Below, one piece after another: positions 10,751 through 63,230 of a stretch of DNA of 64,000 nt. Location of the stretch: NCBI GenBank assembly GCA_030533445.1, contig CM060064.1, positions 40,553,287 to 40,617,286 of the forward strand, written 5' to 3'. The translations under genes and the position numbers were made by a program. This DNA comes from Cyprinodon diabolis. Taxonomy: Eukaryota > Chordata > Actinopteri > Cyprinodontiformes > Cyprinodontidae. Numbering within the stretch: the stretch's first letter is position 1; each line of letters opens with the position of its first letter. The notes under the pieces were generated by a model. The model was given only the letters and a program-made list of their open reading frames with translations. It made no database searches and was not told the origin of the DNA.

Positions 10751-11690
10751 AATCCAGAATAGAATATAAAATCCTCCTTCTCACATATGAAGCCTTAAAT
10801 GGCCGAGCTCCATCTTATATCTGAGATCTGATTGTTCCTTATGCTCCTAACAGAGAACTTCGCTCTGAATCTGCAGGTTTACTTGTGGTTCATACAATTT
10901 CTAAAAACAGAATTGTAGGCAGATCTTATAGTTATCAGGCTCCTCTCCTATGGAACCAACGACCAGTTTTAGTCCGTGAGGCAGACACCCTGTCCATTTT
11001 TAAGAGGGGCTTAAAACTCATTTTTGATAAAGCTTTTAGTTAGAGTGGCTCAGGTTATCCTGAGCTATCTCTAAAGTTATGCTGCTATGGGCTTAGACTT
11101 CTGGAGGACATAGGCACCCTCATTTCATCATTCTGGTTCATCTATCTCTATTCTCCCACTCTGCAGAATCTGTTAGTTCAATCTCTAACTATCTGCTCTC
11201 TCTGCTTTTCCTCAGAGTAGCTGTGCCTTGTCTGTTCCTGTTTGGCTGTGACACCATCCTGGAGAGAAATATCAGCTGTGCTGCTGCCATCAACACCTTT
11301 GTTTATAGATGTTGGAGATCGGCGTGTTTTCCAGTGTAGTCCTGTTTCTCTGACTGTGACTGGCTGGATGTGCTCTCTTCATGCTCTGACATGGGAGCTA
11401 GCTCGGAGCTCGTCTGCCTGGCTGTGTGTTTCCTGAATGGAGCCGCCTTTTACAGTTGTTTTTTGTATCTCTGCTTCTGTCTCCTTGAACCCCAGTCGGC
11501 CTCGGCAGATGGCCGCTCACACTGAGCCTGGTTCTGCTGGAGGTTTCTTCCTTTTAAAAGGAATTTTTTTCTCTCCACTGTCGCCACAAGCATGCCTAGT
11601 GTGAGGGATTGCATTTGAATCAATAAGTCGATGCTATCAACTGGTTTTCCTTAGATAGTAAACTTTGAATGAATCTGACTGTAAACTGAT
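10751..11690 (+). mobile_element. L2/Maui-type LINE, 3' part with reverse transcriptase C-terminus
   Basis: The + strand reads RIEYKILLLTYEALNGRAPS, one stop, then VPYAPNRELRSESAGLLVV and ADTLSIFKRGLK, the C-terminus of the L2 reverse transcriptase protein. A 3'UTR shared with 847-1110 follows. It is dead, truncated at the 5' end. Confidence 0.8.
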
Positions 11691-19586: not shown

Positions 19587-20844
19587 GTAAGAAAGGGTTT
19601 TATCTCAGTCACTGCTGGATCCTCTTGACAAAAAATGGCAGTTAAATATTTAATATGTATCATTAAAATGAGAGAAAAGGCTTTGCTTCTTTATCTTTTT
19701 TATGTGAAAAAAAAATGTCAAATAAACGTTGATGTGGAACCGTACATTTAAGCTTTTACGCACAGCTTGGTCCATTTATCACCTGAGGAAGTTTGATACA
19801 CTATCATCGTTTTTTACATCATATTGATATTTGGTCTTATCAATTTGCTGAAAAAAAGTTATTCGTTTTTTTTTTGTTTTGTTTTTTTTTTTTGTTAAAA
19901 AAGTCGTAAAGTTTTTACATAAATACATTTTAGTTTTATATTGTTGTCGGTTTTAATGATAGGGTTTACTCATTATCAGGTACAAGAATAAAAACTCATA
20001 TATTAAGAATCCATGATGATTGTTCTCATTTTTATTGACACGTTTATGGATTTAAATTCCAAAATATAAAAGGTTAATTATTCCACGAAATTTGCTTTTT
20101 GTTTTGTTTTGTTTTTTATTTTGTTGCCTTAGTTTTTTTTCTTATTTCTTTTTTTACTTTAGCCTATTTACTCATAGGGAACCCTCGTATTGTTGAGACT
20201 TTTACATCTTAAGGATTTTTTTTAATGTATCATTCTTTCTGCTTAAAGGCTATAATGTGAAATAAGAACTATCCTCATTTTTATTCTCATCCTCCTAATA
20301 TCAGAGCAATTCGTGGAGAAATCCTCCTGCAACCAGCAGTCCCTGGCTGACTTGTCCTCCCTGGACGGGCACGGGGACTTCAGCGGGAACGCGCCCGCAG
20401 TGTGCACGGAGCCACTCATCCCCACCAATCCCGGCATCCCCAGCGAGGAGATGGCCAAGATCTCGTGCAGCCTGGAGACCAAAGAGCTTTGGGACAAATT
20501 CCACGAGCTCGGCACTGAGATGATCATCACCAAGTCTGGAAGGTAAAGTGTTTGAATGCATTCATGCAGATGCTGCTCTCTAGTCACTCTGAACACATAG
20601 AATATATGAAATGTGGAAAATATAATGAAAGGTGGCCTCTTCCCTTCTTGTCTTTAAATTTATTGTTTTAGGATTTGTGTCTGTCTGTGCTACATGTTAT
20701 GTTTTTATTAAATTGCTTTATTTTTTAAAATGAAATAAATAAAAAAATTGCTGCTCTCTATTTATTTATGTAGGCTACTGGTCAGACGGCGCTGAGAAAC
20801 AATAGAAACCGATTTCACTTTAAAAAAAAACCTGTTTACTGTTA

Positions 20845-20912
<68 letters not shown>

Positions 20913-23900
20913 TCTTTTTTTACTATCAAAGCTGCAGATGAAATTGTCCAGAGAGCTTTTACAAACGAATTTTTTTTTTTTTTTACGCTGGTATAAACAA
21001 AATGACAACTAAAAACTTTCTGAGTCTTCACTTTCAGTAGAGGTTATAACTATTGTCGGGTTTTTGGGGCGTTTTTTTTTTTTTTTTTTTTTTTGTGCTA
21101 CACACAACAAGGGTTAACTTAATTAATGGTTATTTTTAAACGAAAATACTTTCTTTAAATTTAATGCAATGGGTTAATTGTGATAAAGAAGTCCAACATT
21201 TTCAGCACAATTTATTTTACTCTAAAGGCATCACTTTACCACAATAATTTTTTTGTAGCCACATTAAAATAAATTTTTTAAACATATATCCAACCTGATA
21301 TATTTTATTATTTTCATGATTTGATAAACAGGCTGTTTGCATAATTTTTGGTTGTATTTATTTTTTTCTTTTTAAAATCCAATCTAAAATCCCATTAATC
21401 TGATCCCATTTGTCTGCTGTGTCTAGGATCAAAGGTTTATTCAACCTTTATTACATATCCTGTTGTTTTTATGGAGTTAAATCCGTCTCTAACGCTGAAT
21501 CATCCAAATATTCCGTTTACATTTTATTTTTATATTTTCTTTTTCTTTTTCGTTTATTTATTATTTTATTTATCGCAATAATAATAAGAAGAATATTATC
21601 CTATAGGCGGATGTTTCCTACCATCCGGGTTTCTTTCTCCGGGGTTGACCAGGACTCCAAGTACATCGTCCTGATGGACATCGTCCCGGTGGACAACAAG
21701 CGGTACCGCTACGCCTACCACCGCTCCTCCTGGTTGGTGGCCGGCAAGGCCGACCCTCCTCTGCCCGCCAGGTAAACACCACCAAACTGGACATTATTCT
21801 GGATTTTTATCATATTTTCTTTCTATATCAAAGATTAAGATTAAAACAAATCTTTTAAATAGTCGCATTGGTGTCTTGAGTGTAAGCTTTAGCCGCAATA
21901 AGTCTCATATTCTACAAAATAAATAAATAAATAAAAAACAGCAAAAAAACAAAATAAAAAAATAAAAAGAAAAAAATTATTTTATGCTGTTTTAATTTTC
22001 ATTATACCAGGGACAATACAAACTGTTTAGTCTCCTCATCCAACAAGGATTTTATCAATTACTTATTCCCAATATAATCAACATCTTTATAAGAACCAGC
22101 ATTTGCCTCTGCAATTATCATGGGCTACAATTATAATTCAACAATATAATAATAATATCACGTTAAAAGCAATTAAGCAGTACCTTAAAAAAACACAGTT
22201 TTCTGATGCTGAAAGATAAAAGTCTTAAATGCCTCCCTTATTTTCTTGAAAACAAAGAAACGGCTGCTTGTGGTGACATAATAAAGACTATGATGCATTT
22301 TAAAGAAAGAAAAAAAGGGAAAATTTTCATTTCAAACCGTTTTTCACCAACCTCAAAAAATGAGAAGATTTAGCCAGACGTTTTGTGACGATACACTTTG
22401 TGTCAATTAAAATCAATTAAGTTCTGCTCGTTCATTGGTCAAGCGGCCCGTGCTTCGAATTCCTCTGAGCCAATCAGATGTGAGATGTGTTCTCCCGCTG
22501 CAGGTTATACGTCCACCCGGACTCTCCGTTCACCGGGGAGCAGCTGATGAAGCAGATGGTTTCCTTCGAGAAGGTCAAGCTGACAAACAACGAGCTGGAC
22601 CAGCACGGACACGTGAGCGCGGCTTTTCTCTTTTACGAGTTCCTGTTTTTTACAGAAAGAAATATACCCATAAAAAAATAGAGGTCTGACTCAGGTCCAA
22701 GTGTTAGACAATATTTGGCTTCATTTATGCTTTTTTTTCATTTTTGGTTTTGTTTTAATTTTTATCAATTTATATATTTTTTGTCTTTAGGAGGCTAATT
22801 GTCCATTAAATATAGGCTATATATATACACTATATTGCCAAAAGTATTTGCTCACCCATCCAAATTATTGGAATCAGGTGTTCCAATCACTTCCATGGCC
22901 ACAGGTGTATAAATTCAAGCACCTAGGCATGCAGACTGTTTTTACAAACATTTGTGAAAGAATGGGTCGCTCTCAGGAGCTCAGTGAATTCCAGCGTGGA
23001 ACTGTGATAGGATGCCACCTGTGCAACAAATCCAGTCGTGAAATTTCCTCGCTCCTAAATATTCCACAGTCAACTGTCAGCTGTATTATAAGAAAATGGA
23101 AGTGTTTGGGAACGACAGCAACTCAGCCACGAAGTGGTAGGCCACGTAAACTGACGGAGCGGGGTCAGCGGATGCTGAAGCGCATAGTGCGAAGAGGTCG
23201 CCAACTTTCTGCAGAGTCAATCACTACAGACCTCCAAACTTCATGTGGCCTTCAGATTAGCTCAAGAACAGTGCGCAGAGAGCTTCATGGAATGGGTTTC
23301 CATGGTCGAGCAGCTGCATCCAAGCCATACATAACCAAGTGCAATGCAAAGCGTCGGATGCGGTGGTGTAAAGCACGCCGCCACTGGACTCTAGAGCAGT
23401 GGAGACGCGTTCTCTGGAGTGACGAATCGCGCTTCTCCATCTGGCAATCTGATGGACGGGTCTGGGTTTGGCGGTTGCCAGGAGAACGGTACTTGTCTGA
23501 CTGCATTGTGCCAAGTGTAAAGTTTGGTGGAGGGGGGATTATGGTGTGGGGTTGTTTTTCAGGAGCTGGGCTTGGCCCCTTAGTTCCAGTGAAAGGAACT
23601 CTGAATGCTTCAGCATACCAAGACATTTTGGACAATTCCATGCTCCCAACTTTGTGGGAACAGTTTGGAGCTGGCCCCTTCCTCTTCCAACATGACTGTG
23701 CACCAGTGCACAAAGCAAGGTCCATAAAGACATGGATGACAGAGTCTGGTGTGGATGAACTTGACTGGCCTGCACAGAGTCCTGACCTCAACCCGATAGA
23801 ACACCTTTGGGATGAATTAGAGCGGAGACTGAGAGCCAGGCCTTCTCGTCCAACATCAGTGTGCGACCTCACAAATGCGCTTCTGGAAGAATGGTCAAAA

Positions 23901-25383
23901 ATTCCCATAAACACACTCCTAAACCTTGTGGACAGCCTTCCCAGAAGAGTTGAAGCTGTTCTAGCTGCAAAGGGTGGACCGACGTCATATTGAACCCTAT
24001 GGATTAGGAACGGGATGTCACTTAAGCTCATATGTGAGTCAAGGCAGGTGAGCAAATACTTTTGGCAATATAGTGTATGTGAGTCAAGGCAGGTGAGCAA
24101 ATACTTTTGGCAATATAGTGTATATATATATATATATATATACACTATATTGCCAAAAGTATTTGCTCACCCATCCAAATTATTGGAATCAGGTGTTCCA
24201 ATCACTTCCATGGCCACAGGTGTATAAATTCAAGCACCTAGGCATGCAGACTGTTTTTACAAACATTTGTGAAAGAATGGGTCGCTCTCAGGAGCTCAGT
24301 GAATTCCAGCGTGGAACTGTGATAGGATGCCACCTGTGCAACAAATCCAGTCGTGAAATTTCCTCGCTCCTAAATATTCCACAGTCAACTGTCAGCTGTA
24401 TTATAAGAAAATGGAAGTGTTTGGGAACGACAGCAACTCAGCCACGAAGTGGTAGGCCACGTAAACTGACGGAGCGGGGTCAGCGGATGCTGAAGCGCAT
24501 AGTGCGAAGAGGTCGCCAACTTTCTGCAGAGTCAATCACTACAGACCTCCAAACTTCATGTGGCCTTCAGATTAGCTCAAGAACAGTGCGCAGAGAGCTT
24601 CATGGAATGGGTTTCCATGGTCGAGCAGCTGCATCCAAGCCATACATAACCAAGTGCAATGCAAAGCGTCGGATGCGGTGGTGTAAAGCACGCCGCCACT
24701 GGACTCTAGAGCAGTGGAGACGCGTTCTCTGGAGTGACGAATCGCGCTTCTCCATCTGGCAATCTGATGGACGGGTCTGGGTTTGGCGGTTGCCAGGAGA
24801 ACGGTACTTGTCTGACTGCATTGTGCCAAGTGTAAAGTTTGGTGGAGGGGGGATTATGGTGTGGGGTTGTTTTTCAGGAGCTGGGCTTGGCCCCTTAGTT
24901 CCAGTGAAAGGAACTCTGAATGCTTCAGCATACCAAGACATTTTGGACAATTCCATGCTCCCAACTTTGTGGGAACAGTTTGGAGCTGGCCCCTTCCTCT
25001 TCCAACATGACTGTGCACCAGTGCACAAAGCAAGGTCCATAAAGACATGGATGACAGAGTCTGGTGTGGATGAACTTGACTGGCCTGCACAGAGTCCTGA
25101 CCTCAACCCGATAGAACACCTTTGGGATGAATTAGAGCGGAGACTGAGAGCCAGGCCTTCTCGTCCAACATCAGTGTGCGACCTCACAAATGCGCTTCTG
25201 GAAGAATGGTCAAAAATTCCCATAAACACACTCCTAAACCTTGTGGACAGCCTTCCCAGAAGAGTTGAAGCTGTTCTAGCTGCAAAGGGTGGACCGACGT
25301 CATATTGAACCCTATGGATTAGGAACGGGATGTCACTTAAGCTCATACAGTATATATATATATATATATATATATATGTTATG

Positions 25384-25458
<75 letters not shown>

Positions 25459-28400
25459 ATGGAATATACAAATATCTGCAAAATCACACATTTATTAATT
25501 TAGGTCCAAACAAATGCATTTAATGAGCAGCAATATTCATATCGCTTGTTAGTTTATTTTATTTGCTCACAGTCTCAGTAATATGAAAATTGAATATTTT
25601 ATTTTTCTAAAACTGAAAAGAAATCTATGGATTTTATTACATAGAATGAAAATACATAAGAGATTACTTTTACTGTCACTATGGGAACACAGCTGTATTA
25701 TCTGCAAAACAAGCACAATAAAAGGCAAATTAAACTATAGATACACTGTCAAATTTTGAAAAAGTCAAAAAATTAAAAATAGCAAAGGGATATCATGAAT
25801 GTAAAGACATAGCAGATTATTAGAAATATGTGCAACAAGCAACTTATGTTGTTATTATTTTTGAAATACCATAAAGAATTTTATGCTAGTATTTCTGTAA
25901 CAGAATGAGAAACCTAAAGAGGTCTCCATCTGTAGCTGATGCATCCTTTACTTTTAGTGGATAAATAAGATATTATTTGCAGATTTAGAAAAATATATTT
26001 ATTGTACCTCCCTTAAATGTGTTCCAAGATTTTTCTATTCTTCTTTATAATTTTTCTCTCATTATACAATCTAGATTTTAATTCTCTTTGGATTGTAAAG
26101 GCTGCAGACTTCCAAGTCATTACCTAAAATAAAATACATTCTAATGCACCGTACCGTAGGCATATAACATCCTGTTGTTGACAATTTCTCCAATACCTTA
26201 ATTCAATATTTACTCATATTCTCAGTGACTATGCTTTATTATACCCTATTTATGAAATAAGAACATTTAAGAGTATTTCTGAGGTGTGAATGAAAGTCAT
26301 TGTTTGTAACATAATTATAAATGTTGCCATCTTTTTGTGAAGACTTTACTTCATCAACTCATCATAGCACTTTAGGGGTTAAAGCTAGCTGAGAGTAAAC
26401 AGAGCTTTTTTTTTTTTTTTTTTTACAGAACCAAAATCTTTTGTGTGTTTCGTTTCACATCAGAAAATGCAAACAATCATGTTCAGATTGTTTTTATTTT
26501 GAAATTTATGATGAAATTTTAGTTTAGTTTTTCAGTGTATATTAATACATGTATAAAAGTTTGTCTGTGGTCCTCTGTCCGTTGTTTATTGGTCAGGAAT
26601 ACATCTTTGTGAACATGGAAAAACAAGCCCTGTATTTGTAAAGGACCTGGAGGTTACCCAGATAGTGTCTGTGGGAGTGATTTCAAGTATAAACATGTAG
26701 GGAAATGTCCGATGGAACAATGTGTGAGGCTAACTGATGGGGGGACTCATGCAGAATGGTCAACTTCAAATGAATAGAAAGAAAAGCATTAGCTACTTTT
26801 TGAGGGACCATTGGTGTCTGCAGTATGAAAACATTTTCTTTATTTTTTCTTATTCTTTCCCTTTGCAGATCATCCTGAACTCTATGCACAAGTATCAGCC
26901 GCGAGTTCACATTATCAAAAAGAAGGACCACACCGCCTCGTTGCTCAACCTCAAATCTGAGGAGTTTCGCACCTTTGTGTTTGTTGAGACTGTCTTTACT
27001 GCTGTCACAGCTTATCAGAACCAGCTGGTGAGTAAACCTGTCAGTTCTTGATCATATGTCCCTGCTTAAGCTCTAATATTTTAGTTTTTCTATATTAGAT
27101 GTTCGGGCATGCTTAAATGAGTCACATGAACCTTTTTAGGACAGAACTTCTGTTTAAACTGAGGTTAAAAGTGCAATCTAAATCAGAAAATGGAAAGCTT
27201 AAGAGAAGGTCATTTAATTTACCCGGTTTGATGCCCACAGTCTGCACTCTGGGTTCCTGAGCAAAACCCTTAACCCCACGCTGCTCCCCGAGTGCCGCAC
27301 AATGGCATCCCAATGCTCCACAAGGGGATGGGTTAAATGCAGAGATAAATTTCTCCAATGTGAGATCAATAAAGTTAAATTATTGTTACATAAATATATA
27401 TTAATACTGTGCTGTACTCTCCAAAAAATTTTACATAGAGACAGACAAATAAATGTGACCCTGCATGGATAAGAAGTTCACTGGAATAAAACTTACATCC
27501 TTAGGGGTATGTAACCTTTAGATGTGACTATTGCGCTACACACCTGAATAAAATAGCTAAATCACCTTATTATGATGATGATGATGCTAAGTGATGCTAA
27601 AATCGGAGTCAGGTGTGTTACAGCAGAGATGCATCTAGAAGTCTCAGACACCTGTTATGAGGGCCTGAAGATGGGGTTTATTTTTGGGCAGCAAAAAAGT
27701 TCCTACTTGTTGCGCCCCCTGGTGTAAGGATTGTGGTATATACTCACAACGTACACCCTTTGGGATTTTTCTTACCAATTTGTAATTTGTGCAAACTTAT
27801 ATATTTACATGATTTTATTTAGGTATTTTAGCTAGATTCTCATTCAAGAATGAAATAAAATGTGAACAAAACTGAACAAAAATGTTTAATTAATTTACAT
27901 TAGATTATTATTTTTAAATATTTAATTACATGTTGTTTATTAAATGCTACATCCAGCAATGTTGGAATATAAAGCAATGTGTTTATCGAACACTAACTTT
28001 TCTTAGAGCATTTTTTTTTAACCAGGGCTTTGATTATGTGAAAATTTGACTAAAAACATCCAATGAAACCTGTATCTTTAAAATATTTTAATATGTCTTA
28101 ATAAGACTTTCCAAAAATTGGCTTTTAATATTTGTTTTGAAATATGGAGTTTATATTCTCTGATGTGGTAACTGAAGATTAATTTCTAGGAGAAGGAAAA
28201 CAAAGTTGGGAGCAGAGAAGAAAAGCAGATTGGTCTAAATTGTCTTATGCTTCTGTCCCCCCAGATAACTAAGCTGAAGATCGACAGCAACCCTTTTGCC
28301 AAAGGCTTCAGGGATTCTTCCCGGCTGACGGACATGGAGAGGTACTGGGGATTCTGGGCCCAGAAGTGTTTGTTTGGCTTTGTTCTCACTAATAAGACAC

Positions 28401-41779: not shown

Positions 41780-42470
41780 TTCTATCCATCCATGTTCTAT
41801 GGGCGAGAGGCAGGGCACACACTAGACAGGTCACCAGTCTATTGAAGGGCAACACAGAGACAAACAGGACAAAATACTAGTGTTGTGCCGATGCCATTTT
41901 TTGTCCCCAATACCCGATACTTGGCTGTGCAGTATTGGCCGATACCCGTACCATACAGATACCATCTGTTTGAAATGGATGTGTATGCGCATATATGAAG
42001 AACTGCATACTACTTGGATGTAAAATAATCGCCATCATGGCTTTGTCAAGCTGCTGCCTACCTTAGTGAAGCAGGAAAAGACTAATACAAAGTGAATCCA
42101 GCAGAACTTTTTATTGCCTACCTGGACTGGGTGACAATAGTTGAACAAACTTTTGGCTCTCAAAATGGTATCGGTGCCCTAATTGTTGGTACTCGCCAAT
42201 ACTGATACCACCATTTTAGTGCAGTATCTGGGCAACACTACAAACAACCATTGATGCACACCATCACACCTAAGGTGAGTTTAGAGAAGCCAATTAACCT
42301 AACAGTCATGTTTTTGGACTGTAGGAGGAAGCCAGAGTACCCAGACAGAATCTGTGCATGCACAAGTAGAAAAGGAGACTCCATGCAGAAAGACCCCAGG
42401 CCAGGAATCGAACCCAGAACATTCTTGCTGCAAGGCAGCAACACTACACACTGCTCCACTGTGCAGCTCT
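41780..42470. repeat. Teleost retro-repeat split by a hAT-like MITE
   Basis: The left part (to 41869) has GGGCGAGAGGCAGGGCACAC and CAACACAGAGACAAACAGGA. The right part (from 42241) has GAGAAGCCAATTAACCTAAC, TTTGGACTGTAGGAGGAAGC and CAGGAATCGAACCCAGAAC. They join into the same repeat as 5087-5283. Confidence 0.65.
41878..42240. mobile_element. hAT-like MITE, 363 bp
   Basis: Termini TAGTGTTGTGCCGATGCC and (inverted) TAGTGTTGCCCAGATAC. The flanks CAAAATAC and CAAACAAC match at six of eight positions, consistent with a decayed 8-bp duplication. Paralogous to the MITE at 58600-60260 that hosts Tc1 copy 3. Confidence 0.65.
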
Positions 42471-50150: not shown

Positions 50151-53100
50151 CATTTTTAAAAACGTTTTTTTTTTAAAACACCAGCATACTTGACACTTAA
50201 AATATAAAACATGCAGGATATTGCAGGTCCAGTCCCATCCTGGCTGGGGCCCACTGGTATAGGCAGATACAAGTTGTTTATCTTTCATAAACAATATTTT
50301 ATTCTTGCCTGTTGTATTGTTTATATATGAGGATTAGAGATCAAGCTTATTTCTAGAGATGTACCAATCTATTTTTTCCGATCCAGTTGTATCGATATCT
50401 GGGCAGAGCGTATTGATTAATCTGATTCACCCGTTCAATGGATGAACCATATATCTGGCCATATGAGTGAAGGCTTTAGCCTTGCCTTAAACGTTGTTCA
50501 CAAAAGGTTAACAATTTAACATTGATGTAAATGTACTTTACATTATTAATTAATAAATAAGCAGCAAAAAAAAACAAAAACAAAACAGAAATAAGAGTCC
50601 CATGAAAAAAAGCACTGGATGAGATCTCTGATGTCACATTATTAATATTCTAGTTAGCACTCTGATTATGACAGACTTTATTCAATTTTTTTTTGTTGTT
50701 TTTGCCATGGTCATCTTTTTATTATTTCAATCAATTGACACAATTTTTCACTTCAGTTGCCTTGTTAAAAAAGTCTCCCAAGCTTATTGTCTTTGGATAA
50801 TTGGTTTGTTATCTCAAGGTGATTTTGAATGATGAGGAAACCAAAGCTTCTATTTCTCATAATCCCAGCCTTTCAGTTATTACACACCCTTTACATAAAC
50901 CTTGCCAGGGATATTTTTATTTTTTTAGCTTAACATTAACCAGTTCAACACCCACAAAACCATTAATTGACAGAAATATCTGTAAAAGATTAGCGGTTAT
51001 TTTATCTTCAGATGAATGAAAACCAGACTTTTACAGTTCTAACAGTTTAGCCTCGTCACACCCACTGAAATTTCTGACTTTCCTATTATTAACCTGAAAT
51101 GCCAATTACAAAGAGTCTGTAACACTACCTAAAAATGTTGTGAAAAATAAGAGCTTTATTTAATATTATAAACTATAATGTAAGAACTGACAAAGAAAAT
51201 AGAAGAGATCTTTTTCTTTGTGAAAATACAAAGAAATGTTTACATCTTAAACTGAAATAGGGGAACTAGGAGAGAGATCTAGTGGGAGATAATGCAAACA
51301 TTTATTCTGGGTTAGTACAAGCATCCAAACAAACGACATTTTGCATAACCCCTCAGGAGCAGGAAGAAAGAGAAATAACATTCTGAAGATAAAAGCATTT
51401 TTCATACGTGGCTAGTAGCATAGTTTGCATACAGTATATCAACTGATGAGTGCAGAGACGGTTGAGTAAACAGCTGATGTTAACAGGCCTTTCTGTAGAA
51501 GTAGAGTTTGTCAGTTTAGTGTATGTCAGACACATATTGAGACTGTATGCCAGACTGGAAAGCAAACCAGTCTCCTTATATACTTAGATTGGCAACTATG
51601 TGCTGAAGCTGGTGAAACAAAAATAAGCCTCAATACAACAGGCAGCAGTTTGTGGCCAGTACTGGGTACCCTTGCTGACTTCAAAGGTTCGCACTAGCAT
51701 TTTATTTTAACCCCTATTCATAATGTAGGCAGCTAGTTTAGCCACTAAAGCTAATGCTAGCTTGTTAATCAACATCACTTTAAAGCCTCTCAAGCCGGTT
51801 CCTTCAACGTCCACGAAGGTCCAAGTATTCAAATCACTGAGTTGTAACTGTTGGCTGCTCCCGCTTTGGTCAGCACAATCCAACCAGATTGCAGTATTCA
51901 CGCTCATATGTTAATGCTGTAGTTCTATTAGATAAATGTTATTGAAATTAGGGCTCCCTACCAGTTAGTTCAATATCAAACTGACGTCAAAGAATCATCC
52001 AAAAAACATCAATAAAATTATTTCAGCAATAACTCCAATTCTCTGCATACGTTTGGATCTACACGGGTCACATTCAATAGCAGCCGTTAAAAACGGCCCG
52101 TCCCAGTGAAACGCCAGCCGAATGGCAGCCCACCTCCCTACAACTCCCGGAAAAATCCCCCCCAACTTCCAGCCACTTGAGTGACCCCCTCCTTCCCCTA
52201 GGCGTGCATGTTTTTTTACTCAGACTCCACCTTTCCCTGAATTACAGGGTCTGACCAGGAGAAGGCACTTCTCTTTAGATCTTAAGTTCCACAAATCATG
52301 ACAGAAAGAATATTGATGTTTAAAAAAGGAATTTTAAGGGACCAGCCAAGGGTCCATCAAGGAAAGTGAGGAAATTTTGAATGGCAACCAAATTGAGATC
52401 CAAATCCTTTTAATGATTCTTAGAATCTGTTTTAATAGATAACTAAACGGTGCATTTTTCCAAGTAATGAGTAAAGAAATTAGGTGTGTGTTAAGGGTTT
52501 CAGACAGTTCTGTGGAAGGACTTACAAGTAGACGAGCAACATGGCACCAACCACCATGACAAAGCGACTAAAGGAGGAGTAGAAGTAGACGATGCTCAGC
52601 AGAACACCAGCACGTGACACTGTGTACAACCAGTCCAGCCAGTCCCGGTTCAACTCGTCATCATCCAGCAGCGCCCCACCCTGTGCGTTCATCTGGATGG
52701 GGTTGGCAGGCAGGTTCTCCTGATTAGGGTCCTGGGCTGGGTTGGGACCCAGCGGAGCCTGCACAGCTTCATTGGGTTGGGCTGGCTGATGGGGTGATGA
52801 GGAGGGAGATAAAGTGCTTGGAGGCTGTGAGGCAGCTACTGCGGCCTGACTACAAAGAGGTGAGAATAAAAAAATCAAATGGTGGGAAATTCCCAGAAGA
52901 GATTCCCACTGGGAAGTTTGCTCAAAAAATAAGGAGGTAAAGATCAGCTCCAACAATACACTTACTACTGCATGTAGTATTGGCGTGCGTACATCTGCTG
53001 CCACCACAGCATCTGCATGGGGATGTAGGCTGGATGGGGGGGCATGCTGGCCGGGAGGCCACCTTGCAGAGGGAACTCTGCTGCATCTGGGCTGTGGAAT

Positions 53101-54274
53101 ATTTGTTTATATTCATTATTTAAGAATGAGCCAAAAAAGAAAACAGCAAAGAAAAAAGTCAACAATGTTTTTTTTTCTCTACCCATTTAATTCTTTGTTG
53201 AATGACTTGTGACTGGGTTTGTATCTGTTACTTCTTAATGCTTATGCAGTTTTTAATGCAGACATTTACTCAAAAGGTCATGATGCAAAAACATCAATGG
53301 TTTGAAGTTATAGTATGGTTATATCTTTTTTTTTTTTTTGAGTTTTTACAGCACTAGTTGCTCGTTTTAATGGACAGTAGGCTGACAGGAAAGGGGGTAT
53401 GAGAGAGGGGGAGAGACATGCAGGAAAGGACCTCCGTACATGGGTCGGGTGCACTAACCACTGCGGCACCAAAGCACGCCCGATAATATCTATACTAATA
53501 AACCAAATAATACATTTAAAAATGTTGCTAGTTAATAACCATTCAACAATCCATGGATATTTAGAAGACCTGTGAGATTTAAAGCCAACCTTTTGAAGTG
53601 TGCATTAAAAATCAAACTGCAGCATTAGAATAACTTCTACAAACAGAAGACGTTTTGGGGCTGCTATTAAAGGTTATTCTGACAAACACCAGGACCCTGA
53701 CCAGGATTTTTTTATCAGCGCAGCTGGGAGGGTCATTTGTATTGGTTGTCTCTCAAAATTTATGGTGGGTTAAACATAACTATCAACTAAAACTGCTTAC
53801 CAGTGAGGGACACCAGGGGGAGTATGAGGATGGTAGGAGGGAAAGCCACTTCGATACCTCAACCCATCATTAGTTCCTGGGAAAGAGGAATTAGCAGAGG
53901 AGGAAGAGGCTGACTGGCTGTCCAGATTCGGCATCGAGGCAGGCGAGGAGGAGCTGGTGCTGTCTGAACTCTGAAACCACATGGAAACATTAAATGGCAA
54001 CAAAGGGAAAAGACAGCTTTGTACAAACAAAGGATTTAAAACTTTAAAAAACAAAAACTAACACAGAATTCAAATACTTTGGTGCAACTTTATGATAATT
54101 TGGACAAAAGGTCAAAGAACAGCATCTACTAGATGTGGTTTGTGACTGTTCTTGTACAAAGGAAAGTGTTATGTTTACTTACGCTTGAGTCAGAAGCAGA
54201 GGAGTTGGAGGGACTCTGAGGCATTGGCGAGCTGGAGGGACTAAGAGAAGACATACTGGATGCATCATGCGGTC
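49015..54274 (-). CDS. herpud2: HERPUD2-like ER membrane protein, six secure C-terminal exons
   Basis: Exons in order (minus strand): 54274-54183, 53970-53801, 53091-52966, 52849-52526, 50070-49959, 49197-49015. They give 334 residues plus stop and all phases agree. Diagnostic segments are MLWWQQMYARQYYMQYQAA, then NRDWLDWLYTVSRAGVLLSI with a hydrophobic hairpin through MLLVYLHQAQWFPFRP, an acidic ERLMDEGLEDDDSGEE, and the end WSFISTFFTSLIPEV. HERP proteins sit in the ER membrane by a hairpin and help ER-associated degradation (family knowledge). HERPUD2 fits better than HERPUD1 because of the ERLMDEGLED region. The ubiquitin-like domain that should precede these exons was not found in the window, so the model is 5'-partial. 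Confidence 0.92.
49959..50070 (-). CDS. herpud2: herpud2 penultimate exon
   Basis: Acceptor TTTCAG, donor ATT|GTAAGT. Encodes HQAQWFPFRPQQQHFRGEER and continues to QRQQDIEEI. The WFPFR motif directly follows the membrane hairpin, as in the family. Confidence 0.94.
50071..52525 (-). other. herpud2 intron between membrane-hairpin exon and WFPFR exon
   Basis: About 2.5 kb. A poly-A/T tract (50120-50175) lies near its 3' end. TCTAGAGATGTACCAATC near 50353 resembles one terminus of a hAT element. The rest is unassigned. Confidence 0.5.
52526..52849 (-). CDS. herpud2: herpud2 exon with membrane hairpin
   Basis: Acceptor TTTGTAG, donor TT|GTAAGT; 324 nt. A Pro/Gln/Ala-rich stretch is followed by QMNAQGGALLDDDELNRDWL and DWLYTVSRAG. 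Next come hydrophobic segments LLSIVYFYSSFSRF and VMVVGAMLLVYL, which insert the protein in the ER membrane. Confidence 0.96.
52966..53091 (-). CDS. herpud2: herpud2 exon with LWWQQMYARQYYMQ motif
   Basis: Acceptor TCCACAG, donor TA|GTAAGT. It encodes PDAAEFPLQGGLPASMPPHP and then AYIPMQMLWWQQMYARQYYM. The WWQQMYA-QYYMQ block is a family hallmark. Confidence 0.95.
53375..53480. repeat. SINE-like fragment in a herpud2 intron
   Basis: GAGAGAGGGGGAGAGACATG followed by CAGGAAAGGACC and a GGTCGGGTGCACTAACCACTG box, typical of a dispersed fish repeat. The family is unnamed. Confidence 0.4.
53801..53970 (-). CDS. herpud2: herpud2 exon, Ser-rich linker and RYRSGF region
   Basis: Acceptor TTTCAG, donor TG|GTAAGC. 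Reads SSDSTSSSSPASMPNLDSQS and then a segment ending GLRYRSGFPSYHPHTPPGVP. It matches the low-complexity region that follows the ubiquitin-like domain in HERPUD2 (GLRQR in mammals). Confidence 0.88.
54183..54274 (-). CDS. herpud2: herpud2 exon, serine-rich linker
   Basis: Acceptor CAACAG, donor AGC|GTAAGT. In frame it reads PHDASSMSSLSPSSSPMPQS and more serine. It contains an internal in-frame ATG (the M of SSM) that could start a form lacking the ubiquitin-like domain; this is speculative. Confidence 0.8.
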
Positions 54275-58590: not shown

Positions 58591-58702
58591 CACATTTAAT
58601 AGTGTTGTGCCGATGCCATTTTTTGGCCCCGATACCGATACTAGCTGTTCAGTATTGGCAGATACCATACAGATATATGTTTGAAATTGATGTGTGTGTA
58701 TA

Positions 58703-59950
58703 CACTATATTGCCAAAAGTATTTGCTCACCCATCCAAATTATTGGAATCAGGTGTTCCAATCACTTCCATGGCCACAGGTGTATAAATTCAAGCACCTA
58801 GGCATGCAGACTGTTTTTACAAACATTTGTGAAAGAATGGGTCGCTCTCAGGAGCTCAGTGAATTCCAGCGTGGAACTGTGATAGGATGCCACCTGTGCA
58901 ACAAATCCAGTCGTGAAATTTCCTCGCTCCTAAATATTCCACAGTCAACTGTCAGCTGTATTATAAGAAAATGGAAGTGTTTGGGAACGACAGCAACTCA
59001 GCCACGAAGTGGTAGGCCACGTAAACTGACGGAGCGGGGTCAGCGGATGCTGAAGCGCATAGTGCGAAGAGGTCGCCAACTTTCTGCAGAGTCAATCACT
59101 ACAGACCTCCAAACTTCATGTGGCCTTCAGATTAGCTCAAGAACAGTGCGCAGAGAGCTTCATGGAATGGGTTTCCATGGTCGAGCAGCTGCATCCAAGC
59201 CATACATAACCAAGTGCAATGCAAAGCGTCGGATGCGGTGGTGTAAAGCACGCCGCCACTGGACTCTAGAGCAGTGGAGACGCGTTCTCTGGAGTGACGA
59301 ATCGCGCTTCTCCATCTGGCAATCTGATGGACGGGTCTGGGTTTGGCGGTTGCCAGGAGAACGGTACTTGTCTGACTGCATTGTGCCAAGTGTAAAGTTT
59401 GGTGGAGGGGGGATTATGGTGTGGGGTTGTTTTTCAGGAGCTGGGCTTGGCCCCTTAGTTCCAGTGAAAGGAACTCTGAATGCTTCAGCATACCAAGACA
59501 TTTTGGACAATTCCATGCTCCCAACTTTGTGGGAACAGTTTGGAGCTGGCCCCTTCCTCTTCCAACATGACTGTGCACCAGTGCACAAAGCAAGGTCCAT
59601 AAAGACATGGATGACAGAGTCTGGTGTGGATGAACTTGACTGGCCTGCACAGAGTCCTGACCTCAACCCGATAGAACACCTTTGGGATGAATTAGAGCGG
59701 AGACTGAGAGCCAGGCCTTCTCGTCCAACATCAGTGTGCGACCTCACAAATGCGCTTCTGGAAGAATGGTCAAAAATTCCCATAAACACACTCCTAAACC
59801 TTGTGGACAGCCTTCCCAGAAGAGTTGAAGCTGTTCTAGCTGCAAAGGGTGGACCGACGTCATATTGAACCCTATGGATTAGGAACGGGATGTCACTTAA
59901 GCTCATATGTGAGTCAAGGCAGGTGAGCAAATACTTTTGGCAATATAGTG
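58703..59950 (+). mobile_element. Tc1/mariner transposon, copy 3, full length (1248 bp)
   Basis: Perfect 29-bp terminal inverted repeats and TA at both sides (58701-58702 and 59951-59952). It is inserted inside a hAT-like MITE whose uninterrupted relative lies at 41878-42240. It lies 5' of the recognised herpud2 exons, antisense to that gene. Confidence 0.96.
58837..59868 (+). CDS. Tc1-type DD34E transposase, copy 3, intact
   Basis: 343 residues identical to copies 1 and 2, with all three catalytic acidic residues and both terminal repeats around it. This is the clearest candidate for a still-active autonomous copy. Confidence 0.95.
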
Positions 59951-60279
59951 TATATATGAAGAACTACATACAACTTGGATGTAAAATAATTGCCATCATA
60001 GGAATACTTTCGCAAGGCACTGTATATTTCCAAAGTAGTGTGTCCAGGGTGAAATGACTGATAAAAGTAAAACTTGTCAAGGTGCTGCCTACCTTTTTGA
60101 AACAGGAAAAAGACAAATACAGAGTGAATCCAGTAGAACTTTTCATTGCCTACCTGGAATGGTTGACAATTGTTGAATAAACTTTTGGCTCTCAAAACGG
60201 GATCAGTGCCCTATTTGTTGGTACTTGCTGATACCACACTTTTAGTGCTGGATCGGGGCCCTGCCCTATACTGGTAAAG

Positions 60280-61980: not shown

Positions 61981-62886
61981 GCATAACTATTGGTACTGCC
62001 TCACAGAATAATACTGAACCCTGCTGGACATTTAAAGACACTACAGGCAGCTTATTTTTACAGACTGAACTGAATTGATTTGATGACCTAATACAATATC
62101 ATTTAAGTTATTTGAGGTTATATTGTTATATTTGAATGAAAATATTAATTCAAATTCAGAAATATTAATATAATAATGAAAATATCTTAAATCATATTTT
62201 TAAAACAATATTTGCAGTAAAAAAAAAGTCGATTTGAAATTAACTTTAATTTCGGTAAGTCGAAAACTGTGAGGAAAAGGATGACACAATCAGAAAATGA
62301 AAATAAAAACAAAACGGCTGAAACGTTCCTATTCTTTTTAGGCTGCTCAAAAAGATATTTTTTAAGCAGATTTATCATGTTGACAGATTTTATACCCAGT
62401 TTGGTGAGTCATCGCCTGTGGTTGTTAAGGACAGGGTGGGATAATCTGTGAGATTTAACCCTCCCCTATATCAGCACCTGCTCGGACCACTTCATATCAG
62501 GTCATTTAACTTACAGCTGTTGTTCTAGTAAACATGTGGGGCTATAATCTGGTAAACATGCCATCCATTGTGAAACACAAAGCAAGTGCTAAAGTGTGTT
62601 TCCTACCATGTCCTCTGACTTCTAGGGTTGCAGAAATGTTTTTGTCTTTAAATGCCACCAAACCTCTTTCCAGCTCCAGAGACAAATAGTTGTTCTAAAG
62701 ATAAATCAATAAATAAAGCTAAGAATATGAATAAATTAATGGTAATTCTCCCACTTATAAATTAATAAGAACTCCCATAATTTCCAGACTATAAACATTT
62801 TGCTCTATTTGACTTCAGTTAAAAAAATGTTTAATTCATTAAAAAATAAAACAGTTAAGGTGTTTATGCTGTGATGACTGGAGACA

Positions 62887-63230
62887 GATGGAGTCATGTA
62901 ACGAAAGTAATTTCTCCCTGGGATTATTAAAGTATTTCCGATTCTGATTCCTGGTTGATGGGACAGGTGTTGTGAATGAAATGGTGCCCAGCTTGAAAGA
63001 GCTCCTCTGTGTTGCTGAATGTGTGCATTGATGACTGAAAGACATCTTCTGCCTCCATTTATCTGTTTACTACAGTGTGCTGAATTCATGTTAATGTGTT
63101 TAAAGACATTTCAATTATTGGAAAAATGCAGTGGGGAATAGTAAAAAAAATAAATAAAAACAGTCTAATCAACCAAAACTTTCACGGCCCCCAAGCAGTA
63201 CCTCGGGGGAACCCCTGTTGAAGACCTCTG
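62887..63230. mobile_element. Second copy of the hAT MITE, 5'-truncated
   Basis: Closely similar to the right two-thirds of the element at 1845-2328, with the right terminus GTTGAAGACCTCTG. I find no left terminus or matching duplication upstream. The open frames shared by both copies on the minus strand are repeat-derived. Confidence 0.75.

Follow-up and report, generated by a model that had tools for sequence, protein, structure and literature searches.

Complementary breakpoints in two adjacent Tc1 copies of Cyprinodon diabolis: a nested pair and a mixed-end hop as a candidate origin

Background

Two copies of a Tc1 transposon lie side by side in the genome of Cyprinodon diabolis, in a 64-kb window, by which we mean the whole stretch of DNA that was analysed. 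The first, copy A, is complete and is followed by a second right end. The next, copy B, has no right end. How did this arrangement arise? Did one Tc1 insert into another, and if so, what moved afterwards? Here we describe the anatomy of the locus, compare it with a third copy in the same window, and ask which transposition routes could have produced it.

Results

The 2.9-kb segment that holds both copies is accounted for exactly as flank, A, TA, tail, (TA)11, body, TA, CAG and flank (Table 1). The initial annotation had described copy A as a complete element of 1248 bp with a TA and a 43-bp right end behind it, and had given the order as copy A, TA, tail, (TA)11 and body; both descriptions are confirmed base by base. 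It had also ended the body of B after 1203 bp, at the internal TA of GCTCATA. This is exactly where the extra tail starts. The sum 1203 + 2 + 43 = 1248 holds, and both breakpoints fall on a single TA, one of the TA sites of the element. The stretch 24076-24120 is identical to element positions 1204-1248 at every base and repeats the right end of A itself. More than 1200 identical base pairs in tandem with complementary ends are no chance similarity; whether the A/B arrangement came about as one linked event is a matter of interpretation.

Table 1. Positions of the features of the A/B locus, of copy C and of its empty site in the 64-kb window
Feature	Positions	Strand	Remark
(TA)5 left of copy A	22818..22827	.	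Proposed left remainder of the target TA run
Copy A, complete Tc1	22828..24075	+	1248 bp; 29-bp perfect TIRs, CACTATATTG...CAATATAGTG
Transposase gene of copy A	22962..23993	+	343 aa, intact
TA and 43-bp right end	24076..24120	+	Element 1204-1248; taken to be the right end of B, moved with A
Hybrid unit (A-TA-tail)	22828-24120		1293 bp
(TA)11	24121..24142	.	Separates the hybrid unit from the body of B
Body of copy B	24143..25347	+	Element 1-1203 and TA (matches 1-1205), without right end
Transposase gene of copy B	24277..25308	+	Intact, identical to that of copy A
CAG	25348..25350	+	Lies after the internal TA of B and before the (TA)13 run; proposed footprint of excision
(TA)13	25351..25376	.	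Right flank of B
Copy C, simple full-length element	58703..59950	+	TA on both sides; identical to A over 1248 bp
Paralogous empty site for copy C	41875..42233	+	Dispersed repeat without the element

Each of the two unusual junctions, the composite junction AGTGTATGTGAGTC (GTG-TA-TGTGAG) and the body junction CTCATACAGTA (TA-CAG-TA), occurs once in the 64-kb window. The junction expected of a nest, CTCATACACTATATT, is absent from the window on either strand. The letters that follow the body of B, CAG and then (TA)13, did not figure in the initial annotation and are the key addition made here; copy C is a further one. The right flank of B is rich in TA, and its stretch 25378-25468 contains GTTATGGAATATA twice, at 25378 and 25456, with a (TA)34 run between the two; this probably reflects a local duplication of that flank.

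The element belongs to the Tc1 group of the Tc1/mariner superfamily, as seen from its DD34E transposase, its terminal inverted repeats (29 bp, perfect) and its insertion at TA, of which it has 42 sites of its own. The transposase of 343 aa is uninterrupted and identical in all three copies in the window. Its catalytic residues, assigned by the motifs of such transposases, are D154, D245 and E280, the spacing from D245 to E280 being 34 residues. Three Pfam families, HTH_SB, HTH_Tnp_Tc3_2 and DDE_3, match the protein above their cut-offs. Solved structures that match are those of Sleeping Beauty (SB100X chain 5cr4_A, E 3.5e-50) and of other Tc1/mariner domains. A search for relatives of the protein scored 7,985 candidates and gave 3,779 matches, the best 120 of which were listed; among these 120 the top protein is 99% identical and comes from Cyprinodon variegatus, and frogs and spiders are also among the sources. 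When the listed proteins were compared with the window (tblastn, E 1e-4), they matched only around the three Tc1 copies. Scans for the transposase gave 2 pattern stretches and no relatives in viral contigs, and 27 pattern stretches and no relatives in prokaryotic genome contigs; the DNA of the right end had no match in the viral contigs. Little was expected in either set.

Copy C allowed the limits of the element to be checked against an empty site. When its flanks are joined with one TA, their alignment to the repeat at 41875-42233 runs through the junction with no gap. This repeat differs by several bases at the junction and has CA in place of the kept TA, so it supports an element of 1248 bp with a 2-bp duplication without itself showing the TA. 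Judging from the three copies, the element is young and probably recently active. The dispersed repeat is present twice in the window, at 41875-42233 and 58597-60259, the second holding copy C and, on the right of C, additional sequence. Other dispersed repeats are found at 1970-2296 and 62884-63216 (86% identical) and at 846-1019 and 11510-11683 (91% identical). There is also an open frame at 52522-53106 (-), the C-terminal part of which may resemble a HERPUD-type protein.

What is the trinucleotide CAG? Sleeping Beauty ends in CAG. The ends of the present element are CAC (left) and GTG (right), and since they are CAC rather than CAG, the scar is no plain copy of either element end. Given the geometry of the cuts, it is best read as CA from the left end and G from the right end. 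Four of the 64 possible trinucleotides, CAG included, consist of a prefix of CAC and a suffix of GTG, and these four make up 22 of the 388 TA-NNN-TA motifs in the window, the scar at B being one of the 22; the chance for the scar alone is therefore about 6%. The chance of the two breakpoints sharing one TA is about 1 in 42 if all TA are equally likely. The assumptions behind these figures differ, and the two were not multiplied.

The same form is familiar from related elements. Sleeping Beauty footprints are given as TAC(A/T)GTA in the part of PMC3432063 used here, and as CAG or CTG between TA dinucleotides in the corresponding part of PMC3952818; for the zebrafish element ZB, the portion consulted gives a footprint of 0-3 bp. 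The likeness of TA-CAG-(TA)13 to an excision footprint of the Sleeping Beauty type suggests a simple history of nesting and hopping. At 20843-20907, 2 kb upstream of the A/B locus, TA-CTG stands directly 5' of a (TA)30 run; this also has the form of a Sleeping Beauty-type footprint and could be chance.

The breakpoint itself, TA 1204, ranks top among the 42 TA sites of the element, agreeing with the target consensus AYATATRT at 7 of 8 positions. It is also one of 5 TA sites with a palindromic hexamer.

Which routes lead to the observed segment? From the nest B[A], exactly one of 7,256 combinations of end pair, scar, target and orientation matches the segment: the inner left end acts with the outer right end, the unit is 1293 bp and the scar is CAG. 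Eight scar types were tried, CAG among them because it had already been seen at the locus. With TA runs collapsed, six starting structures were compared: the nest, a single B, a single composite and three tandem arrangements (A-B, A+tail followed by B, and a duplicated A+tail). Of these, the nest alone gives the observed order by a single cut-and-paste step. Starting from a single B, a second element was inserted at each of 134 TA sites, either way round, and one hop was then allowed; this gives 97,256 combinations, for which the CAG scar only was admitted and the orientation of the hop was kept. One route emerges, with site 1204, + orientation and the inner left end paired with the outer right end; it is counted 11 times because positions within the collapsed TA run cannot be told apart. 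The enumeration was confined to cut-and-paste steps and same-chromatid reversed-ends deletions. Within these rules a nest followed by a mixed-end hop is both sufficient and unique, and its occurrence is not thereby established.

Discussion

We consider it likely that a nest, followed by a mixed-end hop of A with the tail of B, explains the A/B locus. The initial annotation was right in its choice of a starting point, for the insertion of a Tc1 into a Tc1 at TA 1204 remains the best one. From there it offered tandem duplication with loss, re-entry of a circle or misassembly, none of which is the simplest route; one mixed-end cut-and-paste step yields the order exactly and explains the CAG at the truncated end as well. 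Copy A would have inserted, in the same orientation, at TA 1204 of B, giving B-body-TA-A-TA-B-tail, a nest that offers two left and two right ends. The transposase would then have paired the left end of A with the right end of B, rather than the ends of one element, and excised a hybrid unit of 1293 bp, A-TA-tail of B. Sealing of the donor break with a 3-bp scar, as the sequence suggests, would have left B-body-TA-CAG-TA. Finally, the hybrid unit would have landed in the TA run immediately 5' of B, at a TA some 1.2 kb away from its departure site and 22 bp from the left end of B. The exact landing target is masked by the TA runs. Excision of A alone was rejected by reasoning, because the tail would then remain in place after the scar.

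Of this history, the sequence itself gives the layout of the pieces, their precise breakpoints, the CAG and transposase genes that are intact, and the enumeration shows that the route leads to the arrangement observed. Both of its products have candidates at the locus. A macrotransposition unit of 1293 bp with mixed ends and a second right end would fit A-TA-tail exactly; since copies A, B and C are identical, they carry no marker of origin that ties the 43-bp tail to B. The sequence body-TA-CAG-TA would likewise fit a reciprocal donor site with its scar, a reading drawn from three letters at one locus in one assembly.

Three other explanations deserve weighing. Tandem duplication of A-TA-tail-(TA)n by way of the TA runs, with later loss of the tails of the second unit through a deletion from TA 1204 to the following TA run, appears unlikely. 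The copies do sit in TA runs able to mispair, they are identical over 1215 bp, part of the preceding TA run included, at a spacing of 1315 bp, and the two occurrences of GTTATGGAATATA indicate that the right flank was probably duplicated. In the Bari1 cluster, moreover, two adjacent truncated copies are attributed in the consulted part of PMC4877112 to exchange at short homologies, either by recombination or by unequal crossing over. Duplication nevertheless leaves the origin of A-TA-tail unexplained and must let the deletion begin at the same TA, one of 42. A deletion from TA to TA also predicts no CAG, and no single cut-and-paste step from tandem starts yields the observed order, free duplications and deletions being outside the enumeration. 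We hold it equally improbable that the locus is an artefact in which simple or nested Tc1 copies were misjoined in the TA runs or between haplotypes. Identical 1.2-kb copies with long TA runs, here on both sides, are hard to assemble, yet both junctions fall on one potential target TA, and the composite and body junctions, found once each in the window, seem unlike overlaps of identical sequence.

Least probable to us is that some other alternative transposition made the permutation, either a reversed-ends reaction (between tandem copies or sister chromatids) or the re-entry of a circle. Reversed-ends transposition between tandem copies could in principle yield A-TA-tail, and the part of PMC4270019 drawn on here documents alternative transposition in maize Ac/Ds. 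However, same-chromatid reversed-ends deletions from tandem starts never gave the observed order, and the sister-chromatid and circle routes would apparently take more steps and still have to account for the body of B. Tandem duplication with loss, misassembly and same-chromatid reversed-ends transposition were each rejected as the main explanation.

If a mixed-end hop from a nest is accepted, how unusual are its steps? A landing 22 bp from the left end of B is a very short hop, far below the local transposition interval of Sleeping Beauty, 5 to 40 Mb in the portion of PMC3432063 consulted. Reinsertion close to the donor is reported there for Sleeping Beauty, and in the consulted portion on ZB for that element, for which 4 of 8 mapped re-insertions were on other chromosomes. 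These data on local hopping make a hop of 1.2 kb possible, not expected. As for self-insertion, the Sleeping Beauty autointegration described in PMC3952818, where a figure legend names 53 events, yielded one insertion in the inverted repeats; TA 1204 is close to the 29-bp repeat here, though 14 bp inward.

If the proposed history is true, one natural locus of a vertebrate Tc1 records both products of a mixed-end transposition next to each other: the hybrid unit that moved and the donor with its scar. The doubled right end and a body ending in TA-NNN-TA would then be searchable signatures, and scans of fish genomes could gauge how often Tc1 elements pair the ends of different copies. Cross-copy pairing of Tc1 ends would also be a possible source of local rearrangement in transgenic Sleeping Beauty arrays. 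It is conceivable, and we put it forward as a doubtful conjecture, that repeated self-insertion at a good internal target, 45 bp from the element's own right end, makes hybrid-ended units that spread as a new mobile variant and strip residents of their right ends, the family thereby producing and inactivating its copies as linked pairs.

Comparison with known systems

In the literature searched, where subscription papers mostly fall outside coverage and a negative result is accordingly weak, the listed titles and abstract openings contained no description of this arrangement for a Tc1, and a search for nested Tc1 pairs excised together gave no paper; a text search for the terminal repeat sequence of the element gave 0 matches. 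Huang and Dooner (2008) reportedly dealt with macrotransposition of Ac/Ds in maize. In that system, as described in the part of PMC4270019 consulted, the ends that cooperate come from two distinct elements lying close to each other, as is proposed here. The maize elements differ in their 8-bp target duplications (same source), whereas the present element is a Tc1 with a TA target and the pair is nested; only 45 bp of extra DNA were carried.

The nearest engineered parallel is the Sleeping Beauty sandwich vector (Zayed et al. 2004, as reported in the consulted part of PMC4229213), in which a transposase of the Tc1 type mobilizes a unit whose two ends belong to different elements. There the elements are head-to-head and the inner ends are disabled (PMC4229213); the present locus is natural, has its copies in the same orientation and keeps the inner right end intact. 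In mice, Sleeping Beauty concatemers resemble the locus in that many adjacent identical Tc1-type elements rearrange locally under transposase, but these are transgenic arrays with large rearrangements, whose mechanism the authors leave unsettled in the sections used of PMC1584263, which also cite rearrangements by Tc1 itself. The Bari1 cluster of Drosophila melanogaster shares tandem Tc1-type copies and has a terminal copy cut to 16 nt of its right end (PMC4877112); aberrant transposase activity was proposed for its terminal copies. It differs in being a large heterochromatic array whose adjacent truncated copies are ascribed to recombination, with no nested origin described in the part of PMC4877112 consulted.

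By analogy with these systems, the A/B locus would work like macrotransposition, its parent nest being absent from the window. Mixed-end transposition is already known from maize Ac/Ds, and what we describe here, at one locus, looks like a natural case of it in a Tc1.
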